Shown: positions 10,953 to 33,389 of the stretch, piece after piece
How positions within the stretch are numbered: the first letter of the stretch is position 1
Layout: every line of letters starts with the position of its first letter
Source of the DNA: Candidatus Bathyarchaeia archaeon
GTDB lineage: Archaea > Thermoproteota > Bathyarchaeia > 40CM-2-53-6 > CALIRQ01
NCBI GenBank assembly: GCA_038843675.1
Contig: JAWBRV010000009.1
Coordinates: 1 to 47,899 of the forward strand
Reading direction: 5' to 3'
DNA: 47,899 bases
Notes under the pieces: generated by a model
What the model saw: the letters and a program-made list of their open reading frames with translations, nothing else
Databases searched by the model: none
Told to the model about the DNA's origin: nothing
Made by a program: the position numbers and the translations under genes

Positions 10953-11858
10953 ATGGAGCTCTCCTCGGAGATCGCTGGTTTGAGGCTCAAATCCCCCCTC
11001 TTGCTCTCCTCGGGAATCTTGGGGCTGGATTGGAGGCTCATGAAAAGGGCGCTCGATTCGGGTGCCGCCGCCGTGATTACGAAATCGCTGACGCTGGCCC
11101 CGAGGAAGGGCTTCCCGAATCCCACCATAGTGGAGGTTAGGTGCGGGCTCTTGAACGCCATGGGCATACCGAACCCGGGAATCAAGGAGTTTTCCCCCGA
11201 GATCGGTAGGCTGAAGGGCCTCGGTGCGATCGTTATAGCCAGCATCGCGGGCGGATCTCCGGGGGATTATGCGGAGGCGGCCGGACTGGCGGAGGAGGCT
11301 GGGGCGGATGCGATCGAGGCGAACGTTTCATGCCCCCACGTCGGCGGCGTGGCCGATATAGGACAAGACCCAAGCGCTTTGAAGGGAGTTGTAGCCGAGA
11401 TGAAGGGGGCGCTCAGGGTCCCGCTCATAGTTAAGCTATCCCCCAACGTCACCGATATAGGCGGGATTGCTAAGGCCGCGGAGGATGCGGGCGCCGATGC
11501 CATATCGGCCATAAATACCGTCAAGGGGTTGGCCATAGACATATACGCCAAGAGGCCCATCCTATCCGCTGGGACGGGCGGGCTATCGGGGCCCGCCATA
11601 AAGCCGATAGCCCTGCGATGCGTCTATGAGATCAGGAGGGCCGTGGATCTGCCAATAATAGGATGCGGGGGGATATTGGATTGGGCCGATGCGATTGAGT
11701 TCCTGATGGCCGGGGCCAATGCGCTTGGGATCGGATCCGCCATATATTACAGGGATGTTTCGGTCTTCGGGGAAATATTGGAGGGCATGAAGCGGTTCAT
11801 GCGGGAAAACGGATATCGAAGCGTGAAGGAACTCATCGGGCTGGCCCATCGGGCTTGA
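10953..11858 (+). CDS. pyrD: Dihydroorotate dehydrogenase, class 1B type
   Basis: A FMN enzyme of 301 aa that oxidises dihydroorotate to orotate in pyrimidine synthesis. A TIM barrel: N-terminal SPLLLSSGILG, TKSLTLAPRKGFPNPT, the active-site Cys in EANVSCPHVGG (class 1B uses Cys as base), KLSPNVTDI, SAINTV, and the phosphate-binding GCGGI with LMAGANALGIGSA. Class 1B enzymes normally pair with a PyrK electron-transfer subunit, which is not in this window. The frame runs upstream to 10557 inside nop5; the ATG at 10953 gives the normal start. Confidence 0.94.
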   Translation: MELSSEIAGLRLKSPLLLSSGILGLDWRLMKRALDSGAAAVITKSLTLAPRKGFPNPTIVEVRCGLLNAMGIPNPGIKEFSPEIGRLKGLGAIVIASIAGGSPGDYAEAAGLAEEAGADAIEANVSCPHVGGVADIGQDPSALKGVVAEMKGALRVPLIVKLSPNVTDIGGIAKAAEDAGADAISAINTVKGLAIDIYAKRPILSAGTGGLSGPAIKPIALRCVYEIRRAVDLPIIGCGGILDWADAIEFLMAGANALGIGSAIYYRDVSVFGEILEGMKRFMRENGYRSVKELIGLAHRA

Positions 11859-26645: not shown

Positions 26646-26870
26646 CTACCTCCATATCCTCCAAGCTATGAGCATCTCGATGGCGATTATCGCGTTGAAC
26701 CAGAACCAAAGCCAAAAGAAGTTGAACGGATATCCGAGGATGTGCGGCTCAAGGCGATTGGCCCAAGCAACGACGGGCCAGCAGACCATAGCGAACGCGA
26801 TCGCCCATGAAATCATCGCGATCCTATCCTTGGCTCGCTTGGGGATGAACCATGGACATGTCTTGGCCAA
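26646..26870 (-). CDS. DUF3311-like small membrane partner of the symporter
   Basis: A 74-aa protein with two hydrophobic helices (residues about 17-35 and 48-70). The aromatic-rich second helix (FNFFWLWFWFN) followed by a short basic end is typical of the small subunits encoded next to SSS transporters. TTG start at 26870. The role is inferred from context: assembly or stability of the symporter. Confidence 0.75.
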   Translation of the reverse strand: MAKTCPWFIPKRAKDRIAMISWAIAFAMVCWPVVAWANRLEPHILGYPFNFFWLWFWFNAIIAIEMLIAWRIWR

Positions 26871-26909: not shown

Positions 26910-27914
26910 TTAGATATAAACCTTCCCCCGCCTTCCCTTCCATTTAACCCTCAATTCCTCGATTAGCCACTCATCCGCCTTAACGATGGAGATCTCCCCG
27001 CGCTCCCCATCCCAGTAGGCCACAGGGACCTCCTCCAACTTGCAATCCGAGTATCTGGCTGTCAGGGAGGCGGCGATCCTTATGGCCCCCTCCGAAACCT
27101 CCCCAGATAACAGAGTCGTCGGGCTGCCCCATCCGATGACCTCTAGAAGGACCTCGCCTGGGCCTTTAAGCCTCTTGATGGCCTCGTTCTCCTCCTCGTT
27201 CCTCCCAACGATTATCTTGCTCCCCCCATATCTGAAATGCCTTCCGACCTTGAGCTTCTCGAGTTCCCGCTCCGAGAGCTCGCCGCCGTGCTCCAACAAA
27301 TCCAATAACTTGGCTGAGAAGCCTCTATCGGTCAATAGGCAACCGCCGGCCGGCGTCAGGTAGCTGGTTATGCCGAGCTCCTTGGCCATCCGAATCTGGT
27401 CCTTTCGAGACCGGCCCCTGAGCGCCAATAAGCCATCCCTCTTCACCCAACCCATCCTCTCGGCCAAGGTTTCGCCGAGGAGTTTGGCGGAGAGCGGCCT
27501 CAGCAGGAGGCCCTCCAAACCAGATTCCCTCTCGATGATCCCCAAGGCCCATGAGTTTTGGGACATGGGCCTCTCGCCGAGGACCTCGCCCGTGAATACA
27601 AACCCGGCCCCTGATTCCACCATTAGCTCCTTGGCCCTCTTGAGCATGAGGATCTTACAATCTATGCAAGGGTTCATGGCTGCCCCATAGCCATACCTCG
27701 GGTTCGCAACGACATCCAAGTATTCCCGGCCGAGCTTGACGATCCGCAGTGGGAAGCCCAAGAGCTCGGAGATCCTCTTGGCCGAGGTCTCCACCTTGGC
27801 GCTCGAGAAGGGGGTTAAGAAGTGAATGCCGATGACCTCGATCCCCATATCCATCATTATCTTTGCGGCAAGCGCGCTATCCAAGCCACCCGAGATCAAT
27901 CCAATGGCCTTCAA
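26910..27914 (-). CDS. PP-loop ATPase, tRNA thiouridylase-like
   Basis: A 334-aa adenylating enzyme. The PP-loop is SGGLDSALAAK at residues about 8-18. NPCIDCKILMLKRAKELM gives a CxxC at about 82-85. A second conserved cysteine occurs in TPAGGCLLTD near residue 200. The Cys pair and PP-loop fit MnmA/ThiI-like tRNA sulfur transfer; the C-terminal domain is different from MnmA. It may thiolate tRNA, but the base is unknown. A TTG start at 27914 with a TATA box (AAATATATC on the minus strand, 27947-27957) gives a short leader. Confidence 0.75.
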   Translation of the reverse strand: MKAIGLISGGLDSALAAKIMMDMGIEVIGIHFLTPFSSAKVETSAKRISELLGFPLRIVKLGREYLDVVANPRYGYGAAMNPCIDCKILMLKRAKELMVESGAGFVFTGEVLGERPMSQNSWALGIIERESGLEGLLLRPLSAKLLGETLAERMGWVKRDGLLALRGRSRKDQIRMAKELGITSYLTPAGGCLLTDRGFSAKLLDLLEHGGELSERELEKLKVGRHFRYGGSKIIVGRNEEENEAIKRLKGPGEVLLEVIGWGSPTTLLSGEVSEGAIRIAASLTARYSDCKLEEVPVAYWDGERGEISIVKADEWLIEELRVKWKGRRGKVYI

Positions 27915-28001: not shown

Positions 28002-28301
28002 CTATCCCTTCAACAACAGAAGGGATGCAAAGGCGGAGAGGAGGCCCAAGAGGGCTGCGAAAACGCCTACCAAAAGCCATGACAACCACGCCGGGAGGAG
28101 GGCTTCAAGATACTTGGCCATGCCCATGCAAATGAAGGCGATCCCGAGCGCTAGGATCAATGCGCCGAAGATCCCAAGGGAAAGCGTCCTCAGTATCCTG
28201 GAAAGGCTCCTCCTACCCCACTCCCCCATGGCCCTCTGGGCCTCCTTGAGGGCCAATTCAATGAGAATATCGATTATGGTGGAGAATATGCTCCTCGCCA
28301 A
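28002..28301 (-). CDS. Small membrane protein, two or three helices (last gene of unit)
   Basis: A 99-aa unknown protein. An amphipathic N-terminus with IIDILIELALKEAQRAMGEWGRR precedes two hydrophobic hairpin helices at about residues 40-63 and 69-97. This layout recalls holin-like/DUF1469-type phage-holin-superfamily proteins, but similarity is only in shape. TTG start at 28301, 7 bp after the previous gene's stop. Function unknown. Confidence 0.65.
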   Translation of the reverse strand: MARSIFSTIIDILIELALKEAQRAMGEWGRRSLSRILRTLSLGIFGALILALGIAFICMGMAKYLEALLPAWLSWLLVGVFAALLGLLSAFASLLLLKG

Positions 28302-28308
28302 CTACCGC

Positions 28309-28524
28309 TTACTCCTTGGATCTAGATAGTATGGCGCCTAGGGCGAACCCAATCAAGAAGGCGATCCCAATGGCCATGAGCGCCTTGTCCTCGATCAATT
28401 CCTTTCTCCTCTCCCTGAGCTCCTCCAACCTCTTCCTCAACTCTTCAAGGCCCTTTTCGATCCTATCCTTTATCTCCCTTTTCAACTCCTCCGACAAAAC
28501 CTCCCTTCCTCCCTCTTTAGACAT
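28309..28524 (-). CDS. Coiled-coil protein with C-terminal membrane anchor (YtxH/DUF883-like)
   Basis: A 71-aa protein. Residues 8-46 are a highly charged helix (LKREIKDRIEKGLEELRKRL, then ELRERRKELIED) expected to form a coiled coil. Residues about 47-66 are one hydrophobic helix (MAIGIAFLIGFALGAILS). This is the architecture of YtxH or DUF883/ElaB-type membrane-anchored proteins. ATG at 28524. It sits between two membrane-protein genes on the same strand. Confidence 0.75.
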   Translation of the reverse strand: MSKEGGREVLSEELKREIKDRIEKGLEELRKRLEELRERRKELIEDKALMAIGIAFLIGFALGAILSRSKE

Positions 28525-28553
28525 TGAGCACCAATTAAGACCGCAGCGGCGGC

Positions 28554-29297
28554 CTAATAAAACTTACCGGCTTTGGGGGCGATCCTCCTGAGGATCGCCG
28601 TCGAGGCGAAGAACATAGCCAAGAAGATCGCTCCAACTATCCAAGCATCCGGTATCGCCATGAAGAGGCCTTTGTAGAGGGCCAGCGAAACGGCAGCAGC
28701 CGCCATCAACCCAATTGCCGCACCCCTGAGGGCCGTCCGGGCGCTGATGCCCAGCAGGAAGGCCAGCATGGCGGAAACCCACCAACCTATGAAGAAGGAG
28801 CTCATGGCCATCACCCCGATCGCCCGCAACCCATTGGCGCGTCTCGAGAAGAGGGCAAGGCTGGATTCATATCTCTTCATAATGGCCGAGAGATACGGCG
28901 CCAGCCTAGAGTATCCGCTTAACGAGGACAGGATCCTCAAGGTAGCATAAAGCATAAAGGAATGCAACAAAACGACCGATGCGCATGAGGCCTCGGCCGG
29001 GATCCCGAGCGAATTGCCGTAGACTATGGCCAGAGGAAAGCCGCCAATTAGGGATATGAGAATGAACTGCGAGATTCTAGCGCTCAAAATGGCCCCGATC
29101 AATAGGCCAGCAAGCAGCGAAACCCCAACGCTCAGGAAGGGATAGCGGCTCACGAACCCCTTGAAGAGCTCTATCTCGCTGGAGAAGCCCTCTTCAACCT
29201 TACGCCTTAGGATTATGAATGCCCTTGCCCTGGCGCCCAGCCTCCCGATTATGCCCGATACGAGCCCACTAGATTTGACCACATCGAATCCCACCAA
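28554..29297 (-). CDS. Polytopic membrane protein of unknown function
   Basis: A 247-aa protein with about six hydrophobic segments: residues near 53-73, 75-95, 100-125, 155-180, 185-215 and 218-238. The N-terminal 50 residues are amphipathic and charged. No catalytic motif is recognised. A distant likeness to small multidrug-export-type proteins was considered but is not supported by a signature. A TTG at 29297 or a GTG at 29294 can be the start. It begins 9 bp after the 57-aa gene. Confidence 0.65.
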   Translation of the reverse strand: MVGFDVVKSSGLVSGIIGRLGARARAFIILRRKVEEGFSSEIELFKGFVSRYPFLSVGVSLLAGLLIGAILSARISQFILISLIGGFPLAIVYGNSLGIPAEASCASVVLLHSFMLYATLRILSSLSGYSRLAPYLSAIMKRYESSLALFSRRANGLRAIGVMAMSSFFIGWWVSAMLAFLLGISARTALRGAAIGLMAAAAVSLALYKGLFMAIPDAWIVGAIFLAMFFASTAILRRIAPKAGKFY

Positions 29298-29306
29298 AGG
29301 GCCGGG

Positions 29307-29480
29307 TCATTTCCTAGATGTCGCGAGCCCAAGGCCAAGGCCCAATGCGAAGAACGCCACCATGGCGATGAGGGGCATCGATTCCGCCTCATCCTCCAGC
29401 TCATCGATGAGCGCCCGAAGGCCCTTTCGCTTCGGATGCAATATTTGCTCTATCTCCTCATCCCTATAGGCTTCCCCCAT
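29307..29480 (-). CDS. 57-residue tail-anchored small membrane protein
   Basis: Not a gene most callers would keep. ATG at 29480, TGA at 29307-29309. The first 34 residues are charged (EEIEQILHPKRKGLRALIDE), and residues 35-53 are one hydrophobic helix (MPLIAMVAFFALGLGLGLA) before SRK. It starts 11 bp after the UPF0280 stop, with a GGTGG ribosome-like stretch upstream, and ends 9 bp before the next gene. The tight spacing on both sides is the main support. Confidence 0.65.
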   Translation of the reverse strand: MGEAYRDEEIEQILHPKRKGLRALIDELEDEAESMPLIAMVAFFALGLGLGLATSRK

Positions 29481-29491
29481 GCGCTTCCACC

Positions 29492-30325
29492 CTATGGCGT
29501 CCCTATCGCGAGGAAGGATTTAAGAGTTCGTTCGATTTGGATCATATGAGCTTTTATATCCCCAAGCGCATCATCAAGCCCGGATTCCAAGGCCTTCCAA
29601 AGGTCCCCTTTGATGCGAACGAGCTCCGGGGGATGCCCCCGGAACCCAACGTGGCCGCCCATGAATATGTTAACGAACCTCAAACCCCCGATCGACCGAG
29701 AGAACTCAAGCCCCCTTTCGATGGCCTCCCGAGGACTTGTCCCTCTCACCTCATTGCATATGGCTGTGGCGGCAGCATCCGCCAGCGCAGCCGAGTCGGC
29801 CACTACCATAACGGCATCCGCTTGGCCGAAGCTGAGGGCATGACCAATCGTCGCAGAGCTCGTCGCCACTCCAATCGGGAACTCATCCGGGTGGAATCTA
29901 AAGCCTATCCCGGAGTCGGATCCCGAGCCCTCATAAAGGCCGATCACCAATGGGGCGATGGAGTTAGCGGCAACCTCTCCGCCGTTCTCGACCACGTTAA
30001 CAAATCCATCGCGCTTGAGCATCTCCTCAAGGGCCAGATCGGCCAAGGCGCCCGGAACGGCCGCCATCGGTCCCACGCCCGCCGCCTTGGCGGCACGTAT
30101 CGCGATCGCAGCCACCTTGGGCACGGGGCCCTCTACGTCGAGCGGATCGAGGGATTCCAAAAAGGCGGGCTTCGACCTCAAATAAGCCCTAAGGAGGGCC
30201 CTGTTCTCGATAACGGAGGCCAAGGCGGCTCCTATACCGAGTGGGGAATCGCTGATCAGAAGGAGCTTAGACTCTCCTATGATCCTTCGAACCCTTAGGA
30301 GGCTTGGTAGTCCGGCCGGGCTCAA
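29492..30325 (-). CDS. UPF0280 (COG2122) ApbE-like protein, homocysteine synthesis
   Basis: A 277-aa protein of the archaeal UPF0280 family, distantly related to the flavin transferase ApbE. Seen: GVGPMAAVPGALADLALEEM, VVENGGEVAAN, GIGVATSS-like GVATSSATIGHAL, and DAVMVVADSAALADAAATAICN. Family knowledge: the COG2122 protein is linked to sulfide handling for homocysteine and cysteine synthesis in Methanosarcina. The TTG at 30325 overlaps the stop of the ferredoxin gene as TTGA. The longer frame (to 30382) is antisense-free but reads through ferredoxin codons and has no family likeness. Confidence 0.85.
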   Translation of the reverse strand: MSPAGLPSLLRVRRIIGESKLLLISDSPLGIGAALASVIENRALLRAYLRSKPAFLESLDPLDVEGPVPKVAAIAIRAAKAAGVGPMAAVPGALADLALEEMLKRDGFVNVVENGGEVAANSIAPLVIGLYEGSGSDSGIGFRFHPDEFPIGVATSSATIGHALSFGQADAVMVVADSAALADAAATAICNEVRGTSPREAIERGLEFSRSIGGLRFVNIFMGGHVGFRGHPPELVRIKGDLWKALESGLDDALGDIKAHMIQIERTLKSFLAIGTP

Positions 30326-30711
30326 ATGGCCCTTATGGCCCTCATGGGGCAGGCGTTCACGCATATCAGGCATCGCACGCATCTATCCTGATCTATCCGT
30401 ATATTCCTCCAACTCTCCATCTCTATCGCCCGAACTGGGCATGGGGAGACGCAGGCACCACAATAGACGCATTTCCCCTCATCCAACTCGATGGCCGGGG
30501 CGATTCTCTCCACCTTAACGCCCCTATCCCCCAAGAACTTCATGACCTCTTCCAGTTCACCCCCTTGAAGCGGGACGTCCACGATCATAGTCCCCCTATC
30601 GCCGGAGATCTTCGCCTCTATTATGTTGACCTCCAAGCCCTTGGCCAAGATCAGCTTGGAGAGTATCGGCTCCCCAACGTTCTCCGGGGTATACGTCAGC
30701 CTCAGCTTCAT
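30322..30711 (-). CDS. NIL domain-di-[4Fe-4S] ferredoxin, homocysteine synthesis
   Basis: A 129-aa protein. Residues 1-75 are a NIL domain (KLRLTYTPENVGEPILSKLI). The C-terminal half has two clusters, CVYCGACVSPCP and CVRCLICVNACP, each C-x2-C-x2-C-x3-C-P. Family knowledge: this NIL-ferredoxin (MA1822-like) works with a DUF39 protein to form homocysteine from aspartate semialdehyde and sulfide, probably by electron transfer. It overlaps the DUF39 gene by 4 bp at the start and the UPF0280 gene at the end. Confidence 0.92.
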   Translation of the reverse strand: MKLRLTYTPENVGEPILSKLILAKGLEVNIIEAKISGDRGTMIVDVPLQGGELEEVMKFLGDRGVKVERIAPAIELDEGKCVYCGACVSPCPVRAIEMESWRNIRIDQDRCVRCLICVNACPMRAIRAI

Positions 30712-32318: not shown

Positions 32319-33389
32319 CTATGCGCCATCCGGCGGCGGGAACAGCCGCTCGGGCTGCGGGCCCCCCTCCAGCTCCCTCAGCTTCCTCCTTATGATCCCA
32401 AGGGAGACCTTCTGCTGATCTATCGATACGGTCATCTTAGGGGAGAGATAAGTTATATCGGCGCTTCCAAAGCAATTCGGAAACTTCGCCTCGTATCGCT
32501 CCTCCCATTCCAAATGATCCGTTATGCTATTGTGGTTGCCGAACAGGAGCAGGTTGTACCTGCCGTGGCTGATGTTCATCGCTATTGGAACGTGGGGATC
32601 CCTCCTTATCTCCTCCAAGATCGCCTCCTTGGATCTCCTGACCTCGTAGAGGGAGAAGACGAGTATGTAATTTGGGGGCACGAAGAAGTTCGGGAACCTG
32701 CATACGGGCCTCCCCACGAAGCCCCCCTCGATGAGCTTCTCTATCCTCTTCGATATCGTCCTCCTATGGAGCCCGAGCTCCTTCGATAGGAAGTTCTCGT
32801 TAACCTTTATGCCCTCCCCGAGGACCAACGCCTTCATTATATCGAAGCTGAGTCGGTCGATGGCGCATCCGTTTATCTCGAGCTCCCCATTCTTAATCAA
32901 GTCCTCTTCAATGAGCTTGATGGCCGAGCTAGGTTCGTATTTGACCATCATGTGGGTGGAGAAATAGGAAGTGCTGGAGGGATATCGGAACTCCCTCGGG
33001 GGTATCTTCCCTTGCGGGACTAGGGATTCCCTCCAAAGCTGATAGCTCGTGACGTCCTTGTGGAATAGGAAGAGGAGCGTATTGTATTCGCCCTGCCTCG
33101 ACCTGAAGGCGGCGAATATATGCTCATCTGTGCTTATCCACCTCCTGAATTGCTCGTCATTTGGGATGTCTGCCCTCACGGCTATCAGGAGGGGGTATTC
33201 CCTATAGAGCCCTATGAAGGGGAACACGGACCTATCCAAGACTTTATGATTAAGCAGTTCATCCACCCTCTCCTTAATGGTATTCCTATGCTTCCCGAAG
33301 CGCTTTGAGAGGAGGCTCAGGTTCGGGCTGGTGGCCTCCCCGGATACAAGCTTCTCCAGCAGTCGGAGGTTAACGGGGTCGTTTAGCAA
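32319..33389 (-). CDS. Tandem winged-helix transcription regulator
   Basis: A 356-aa protein with two similar halves. Each half has an HTH followed by an alpha/beta domain. HTH 1 is at about residues 20-50 (LSLLSKRFGKHRNTIKERVDELL), HTH 2 at about 195-230 (NFLSKELGLHRRTISKRIEKLI). The repeated phrases GLYREYPLL.../VPPNYILVFSL and GEYNTLLFLFHKD/GRYNLLLFGNHN show internal duplication. Lrp/AsnC-like, but not standard. TTG start at 33389; TATA AAATATTAAAG at 33421-33432. Located directly upstream of the homocysteine operon on the same strand, it may control it. Confidence 0.8.
   Translation of the reverse strand: MLNDPVNLRLLEKLVSGEATSPNLSLLSKRFGKHRNTIKERVDELLNHKVLDRSVFPFIGLYREYPLLIAVRADIPNDEQFRRWISTDEHIFAAFRSRQGEYNTLLFLFHKDVTSYQLWRESLVPQGKIPPREFRYPSSTSYFSTHMMVKYEPSSAIKLIEEDLIKNGELEINGCAIDRLSFDIMKALVLGEGIKVNENFLSKELGLHRRTISKRIEKLIEGGFVGRPVCRFPNFFVPPNYILVFSLYEVRRSKEAILEEIRRDPHVPIAMNISHGRYNLLLFGNHNSITDHLEWEERYEAKFPNCFGSADITYLSPKMTVSIDQQKVSLGIIRRKLRELEGGPQPERLFPPPDGA

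Follow-up and report, generated by a model that had tools for sequence, protein, structure and literature searches.

A probable archaeal counterpart of the bacterial YqjD-YqjE membrane module in Bathyarchaeia

Four short genes located behind a homocysteine (hcy) operon of a Bathyarchaeia genome are probably an archaeal counterpart of the bacterial YqjD-YqjE membrane module, presumably serving in envelope stress or slow growth, to which an anchored partner of the DedA superfamily has been added in one genus. The parts of this view do not carry the same weight. We are rather confident that the module is of the YqjD/YqjE type; a membrane role in stress or slow growth, which is argued by analogy, is a tentative proposal that falls a little short of even chances, and ribosome binding, taken from the same analogy, is unlikely. 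No description of the module in Bathyarchaeia was found in the open-access papers searched.

The gene cluster and its conservation

The window, by which we mean the whole stretch of 47,899 nucleotides that was analysed, belongs to an assembly of 1.36 Mb in 20 contigs. The original prediction described four close-packed minus-strand open reading frames behind the UPF0280 gene, all encoding proteins with membrane helices, and it was correct on both points: the frames are present (Table 1), the gaps from UPF0280 onward are 11, 9, 29 and 7 bp, and the 57, 247, 71 and 99 aa proteins contain one, about six, one and two hydrophobic helices, respectively. The start of the 247 aa protein is more likely the GTG at 29294, because a relative from the same genus begins one codon later. 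Two further species of the genus have the full cluster intact, likewise between UPF0280 and the same ThiI-like gene, and the pN/pS values of all four genes (0.17-0.47) are similar to those of the flanking enzymes; purifying selection acts on all of them. Based on this conservation and these values, the small open reading frames are genes and not chance occurrences.

Table 1. Genes of the cluster and the adjoining gene of the hcy operon (positions in the window)
Gene	Position	Strand	Remarks
UPF0280	29492..30382	-	Closes the hcyA-ferredoxin-UPF0280 operon; adjoining gene, taken to lie outside the module
57 aa	29307..29480	-	ATG start; first gene of the cluster, 11 bp past the UPF0280 stop
247 aa	28554..29297	-	TTG start as called; polytopic
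71 aa	28309..28524	-	ATG start; tail-anchored
99 aa	28002..28301	-	TTG start; PF07332-type

Some other features of this region should be mentioned. A TATA-like sequence, TTTTATTA, is located about 40 bp ahead of the start of the 71 aa gene and could be an internal promoter. Directly after the cluster, at a position kept in the genus, a 334 aa protein with ThiI/PP-loop and NFACT-R_2 RNA-binding domains is encoded (26910-27914). Further on, just before a sodium/solute symporter gene, lies a genus-conserved gene for a 74 aa two-helix membrane protein (26646-26870); this protein had no Pfam match and is possibly a small subunit of the symporter.

The gene order 57-71-99 is present in 11 of the 38 genomes of the taxonomic order, i.e., in the three species of the genus itself and in eight further genomes. 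The trio occurs without the 247 aa gene in G021, G030, G031, G032, G033, G034, G035 and G037, and in G029 it is broken off by the end of the contig. Adjacent 71-99 pairs are also found in five other genomes of the same class (G024, G025, G027, G217 and G253) and, outside the class, in G459 and G304. By our own count there are 18 loci in 14 genera, the window included, at which an anchor gene lies directly upstream of a PF07332 gene on the same strand, with gaps ranging from -4 to 18 bp. The view that the genes form a conserved membrane unit was thus supported by the recurrence of the trio, and by the extension of the 71-99 pair even beyond the class.

The remaining arrangements are more variable. 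Throughout most of the order no 247-like gene adjoins the trio; in family f6 it is located elsewhere, and in G028 a 99-like gene comes after it. Genomes of families f3 and f4 have a solitary 57-like gene, G026 has its 71-like and 99-like genes at separate places, and no member of the four gene families was found in the large genus g2 of family f2. The f6 trio is often flanked by a DUF2110 gene on one side and, on the other, by a gene for a polytopic, zinc-ribbon-containing membrane protein of the DUF4013 family (L093 3326-5838; L094 28-2489; L213 847-3324). Directly after the 99-like gene, families f3 and f4 have a gene whose product looks secreted and contains a shared QPCLSNNISIMRNN motif (L087 2851-4160; L088 4436-5795; L095 4368-5496), and the copy of this protein in G025 matches the carbohydrate-binding module CBM96.

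Family relationships of the four proteins

None of the four proteins had been thought to carry a recognised family signature, and the genes had been considered a candidate for an undescribed system. The first statement does not hold and the second finds no support: relatives place three of the four proteins in families, although the window sequences themselves score below the Pfam cut-offs, and these three have recognisable bacterial relatives in a like arrangement.

Judged by sequence, the 99 aa protein is a member of PF07332 (Holin-X, YqjE family). In a single-sequence Pfam search the window protein reaches an E value of 3.4e-4 (21.1 bits, under the cut-off of 28.4), and all 17 members of its family match PF07332, the best of them at 1.4e-9; E. 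coli YqjE itself matches at 3.5e-21. The protein, which has two hydrophobic segments, is modelled by AF2 (pLDDT 81) with helices at residues 2-68 and 71-98, forming a two-TM hairpin with an amphipathic N-terminal helix. When the family profile was compared directly with E. coli YqjE alone there was no signal (probability 0.3%), and hence the connection with bacterial YqjE runs through the Pfam profiles only. Fold searches with the models of the 99 aa and 247 aa proteins gave no significant match.

The 71 aa protein consists of a charged N-terminal helix and a C-terminal glycine-zipper TM of the DUF883_C type, as in YqjD and ElaB. The window protein matches PF19029 (DUF883_C) at E 0.0028, under the gathering score, and 8 of its 15 relatives match this family. 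Aligned with the C-terminus of E. coli YqjD, the family profile of the 71 aa protein scores 44.1, whereas 100 shuffles that preserve composition reach 17.0 at most; YqjD itself matches DUF883_C at E 1.4e-15 and also DUF883. No N-terminal DUF883 domain (PF05957) was detected in the window protein, and none appeared among the 25 families listed for the 15 relatives; we therefore refer to the 71 aa protein as YqjD-like and do not count it as a member of DUF883, the group of YqjD, ElaB and YgaM.

A related anchor is carried by three of the four proteins. The 57 aa protein has an acidic N-terminal helix and a C-terminal glycine-rich, DUF883_C-like TM ending in SRK, and its family profile matches that of the 71 aa protein with an hhalign score of 62.8 (100 shuffles gave 25.6 at most). 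Profile comparisons likewise link the N-terminus of the 247 aa protein to both families, and searches of the whole own genome with the 71 aa or the 57 aa model retrieve nothing but the two small proteins themselves and the N-terminus of the 247 aa protein. It should be noted that glycine-zipper anchors are short, and that such a resemblance could arise by convergence. Additional relatives of the 71 aa protein are encoded away from the trio (G033:C44, G034:C368, G035:C35 and C16, G036:C194, G037:C143 and C68), and tail-anchored DUF883_C-like proteins therefore seem to have multiplied in family f6.

In the 247 aa protein, the N-terminal helix and DUF883_C-like TM (residues ~24-74) are fused to a domain (residues ~84-202) that we assign, from its profile matches, to a divergent branch of PF06695 (Sm_multidrug_ex). 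The window protein scores 18.3 bits against this family (E 0.0037; cut-off 30.7); 11 of its 13 relatives match, the best at 7.2e-10 and five of them over the Pfam cut-off. Compared with canonical PF06695 members of the class, the profile gave an hhalign score of 41.1, whereas 59 of 60 shuffles scored 18.8 or less and one reached 36.3. PF06695 and DedA/PF09335 are homologous families (PMC7818093). In the AF2 model (mean pLDDT 75.8, pTM 0.64), a long N-terminal helix is followed by a TM, a broken-helix hairpin (74-96) and another TM, and then by a stretch at 133-147, a second broken hairpin (156-182) and two TMs. In this model the hairpins are probably re-entrant and residues 133-147 amphipathic, an arrangement that agrees with the order hairpin-TM-amphipathic-hairpin-TM predicted for PF06695/DedA (PMC7818093).

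Canonical PF06695 proteins of the class are exemplified by the motifs SEVRGAIIYGTLAGID ... PLPATGVWTANLAAFALGI. Of the canonical features, YG...G(I) and W...A-x-LLG(I) are still present in the 247 aa protein, but the loop-1 E and R and the loop-2 PLP of PLP-x-x-G-x-W are absent; GGFPLAIVYG and SFFIGWW replace them, with GWW standing for G-x-W. Transport activity may be lost or altered. A direct comparison of the family profile with E. coli YqjA scored within the range of the shuffles, and it is for this reason that the link to bacterial DedA, too, is made through Pfam profiles only. Among the viral matches listed for the model, two Megaviridae proteins annotated as 'SNARE associated Golgi protein' (DedA-type) had the top TM-scores (0.35 and 0.28), at E values >3, and were given no weight.

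Possible roles of the module

The position of the genes had suggested a membrane complex linked to sulfide or homocysteine that works with the hcy operon. The module lies 11 bp from UPF0280, an arrangement kept in three species of the genus, and in G027 a 57-like gene is located about 1.5 kb from hcyA, a partial exception to the separation seen elsewhere. However, the module adjoins hcy genes only in its own genus. HcyA is present in 17 of the 38 genomes of the order, including module-bearing genomes of families f3-f6, and tblastn searches with the hcy proteins found no hcy genes at the trio or pair loci outside the genus, while they are present elsewhere in most of these genomes. We therefore take the adjacency as one of neighbourhood and not of pathway; the sulfide link was rejected, and a shared function with the hcy operon is hardly credible. 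As to whether the genes stay together with and without hcy, the trio or the pair does recur away from the hcy genes, but all four genes are together only in the genus. Two observations concern the hcy operon itself. In G027, a genome of another family, an intact hcyA-ferredoxin-UPF0280 operon (L217, G027:C8, 7128-9717) is accompanied on the opposite strand by the 57-like tail-anchored gene, which stands by itself (11272-11478). Upstream of hcyA in the window, a 356 aa two-repeat winged-helix-type regulator is encoded (32319-33389), and a 48%-identical relative of it in G026 (L216 10391-11455) adjoins a 57-like gene and not hcyA.

The other readings concern the proteins themselves. That unrelated small membrane proteins with similar glycine-rich helices have merely come together in one genus would be in line with the sub-threshold scores of the single sequences and with the short, low-complexity region that matches; this is contradicted and largely refuted by the gene order kept across families and classes, with 71-99 adjacency in 14 genera, and also by the clearly exceeded shuffle controls and the PF07332 match at 1.4e-9. 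PF07332 bears the name Holin-X, and overexpression of YqjE, like that of YqjD, halts growth of E. coli (PMC10746276; for YqjE also PMC11302039), so that a holin-like, membrane-permeabilising or toxin module may be considered. It is very improbable, since no phage or defence genes were noticed around the loci, neither a PADLOC match nor a holin PHROG was obtained, and the genes behave as ordinary conserved chromosomal genes. An unlikely, though less remote, alternative is a unit centred on a transporter, in which the 247 aa protein does the work (DedA-like transport or lipid movement) and the small proteins are assembly or regulatory subunits. The PF06695 relatives, the model with its two re-entrant-like hairpins in the DedA element order, the anchor common to the 247 aa and the small proteins, and the DedA gene beside yqjCDEK in E. 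coli all speak for it; but beyond the genus the trio is encoded without a 247-like gene, which lies elsewhere, and the canonical loop-1 E and R and loop-2 PLP are missing.

We favour the archaeal YqjD-YqjE-type module, for which the following mode of action can be envisaged. The 71 aa anchor protein is encoded directly upstream of the 99 aa YqjE-family protein, usually with the 57 aa paralogue preceding both. The shared anchors would pack on one another and on the YqjE-like protein with its two helices, giving a patch or complex in the membrane. The charged cytoplasmic helices would bring a soluble partner there when growth is slow or the envelope is stressed, while the 247 aa protein might provide a transport, lipid or scaffold function within the same complex. 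The earlier suggestion of an envelope-related role is plausible and gains from the bacterial counterparts (PMC11302039), although the sulfide-related alternative is not supported; the secreted-looking neighbour of the 99-like gene, with its CBM96 match in G025, is a second hint in this direction.

In stationary phase, the tail-anchored YqjD of E. coli holds ribosomes at the membrane (PMC10746276; PMC10502375), and here the recruited partner is the 30S ribosome. Such tethering cannot be claimed for the archaeal module because the N-terminal DUF883 domain was not found. It is accordingly a long shot that the three paralogous tail anchors, together with the YqjE-like and the DedA-superfamily protein, build an archaeal complex that keeps ribosomes, or some other cytosolic machine, membrane-bound during dormancy. 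If true, ribosome hibernation by a YqjD-type membrane system would extend beyond bacteria; in E. coli, no membrane proteins other than YqjD and its paralogues are known to be tied to ribosome hibernation, and how these act is not known (PMC10502375).

Comparison with bacterial systems

The 247 aa protein is connected to the DedA superfamily by relatives that exceed the Pfam cut-off of PF06695; the window protein differs from the canonical members in its sub-cut-off score, the lost loop-1 residues and the extra N-terminal anchor. In E. coli, a single strand carries yqjA (DedA family), mzrA, yqjC, yqjD, yqjE and yqjK in succession. The two systems differ in several aspects: YqjD has the PF05957 domain and the archaeal anchor protein does not; no archaeal counterpart of yqjC or yqjK was identified, and the archaeal module has an extra anchored paralogue of 57 aa; and the DedA gene of E. 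coli belongs to PF09335, whereas the archaeal DedA-superfamily protein belongs to PF06695 and is fused to an anchor. They are alike in that a gene for a DUF883_C-type tail-anchored protein is followed within a few bp by a PF07332 gene, and in that a DedA-superfamily gene is nearby, yqjA and mzrA lying just upstream of yqjCDEK, a neighbourhood of yqjA and yqjD that may be coincidental. The function of YqjE in E. coli is not known (PMC10746276). That the anchor and YqjE pair is conserved across archaeal families, and that the anchor is reused on a protein of the DedA superfamily, suggests cooperation between the pair and DedA-type proteins, which can be tested in genetically easy bacteria.

The PA3040-PA3042 genes of Pseudomonas aeruginosa form a YqjD-like/YqjE-like operon that responds to envelope stress and stationary phase (PMC11302039). 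Its third gene is placed last, unlike in the archaeal order, and encodes a protein without a recognised domain or a shown relation to the archaeal proteins. The likeness lies in the close packing of a YqjD-like gene, a YqjE-like gene and a third gene that varies between lineages, and in the order of PA3040-PA3041, in which, as in the archaeal module, the anchor protein precedes the PF07332 protein (PMC11302039).
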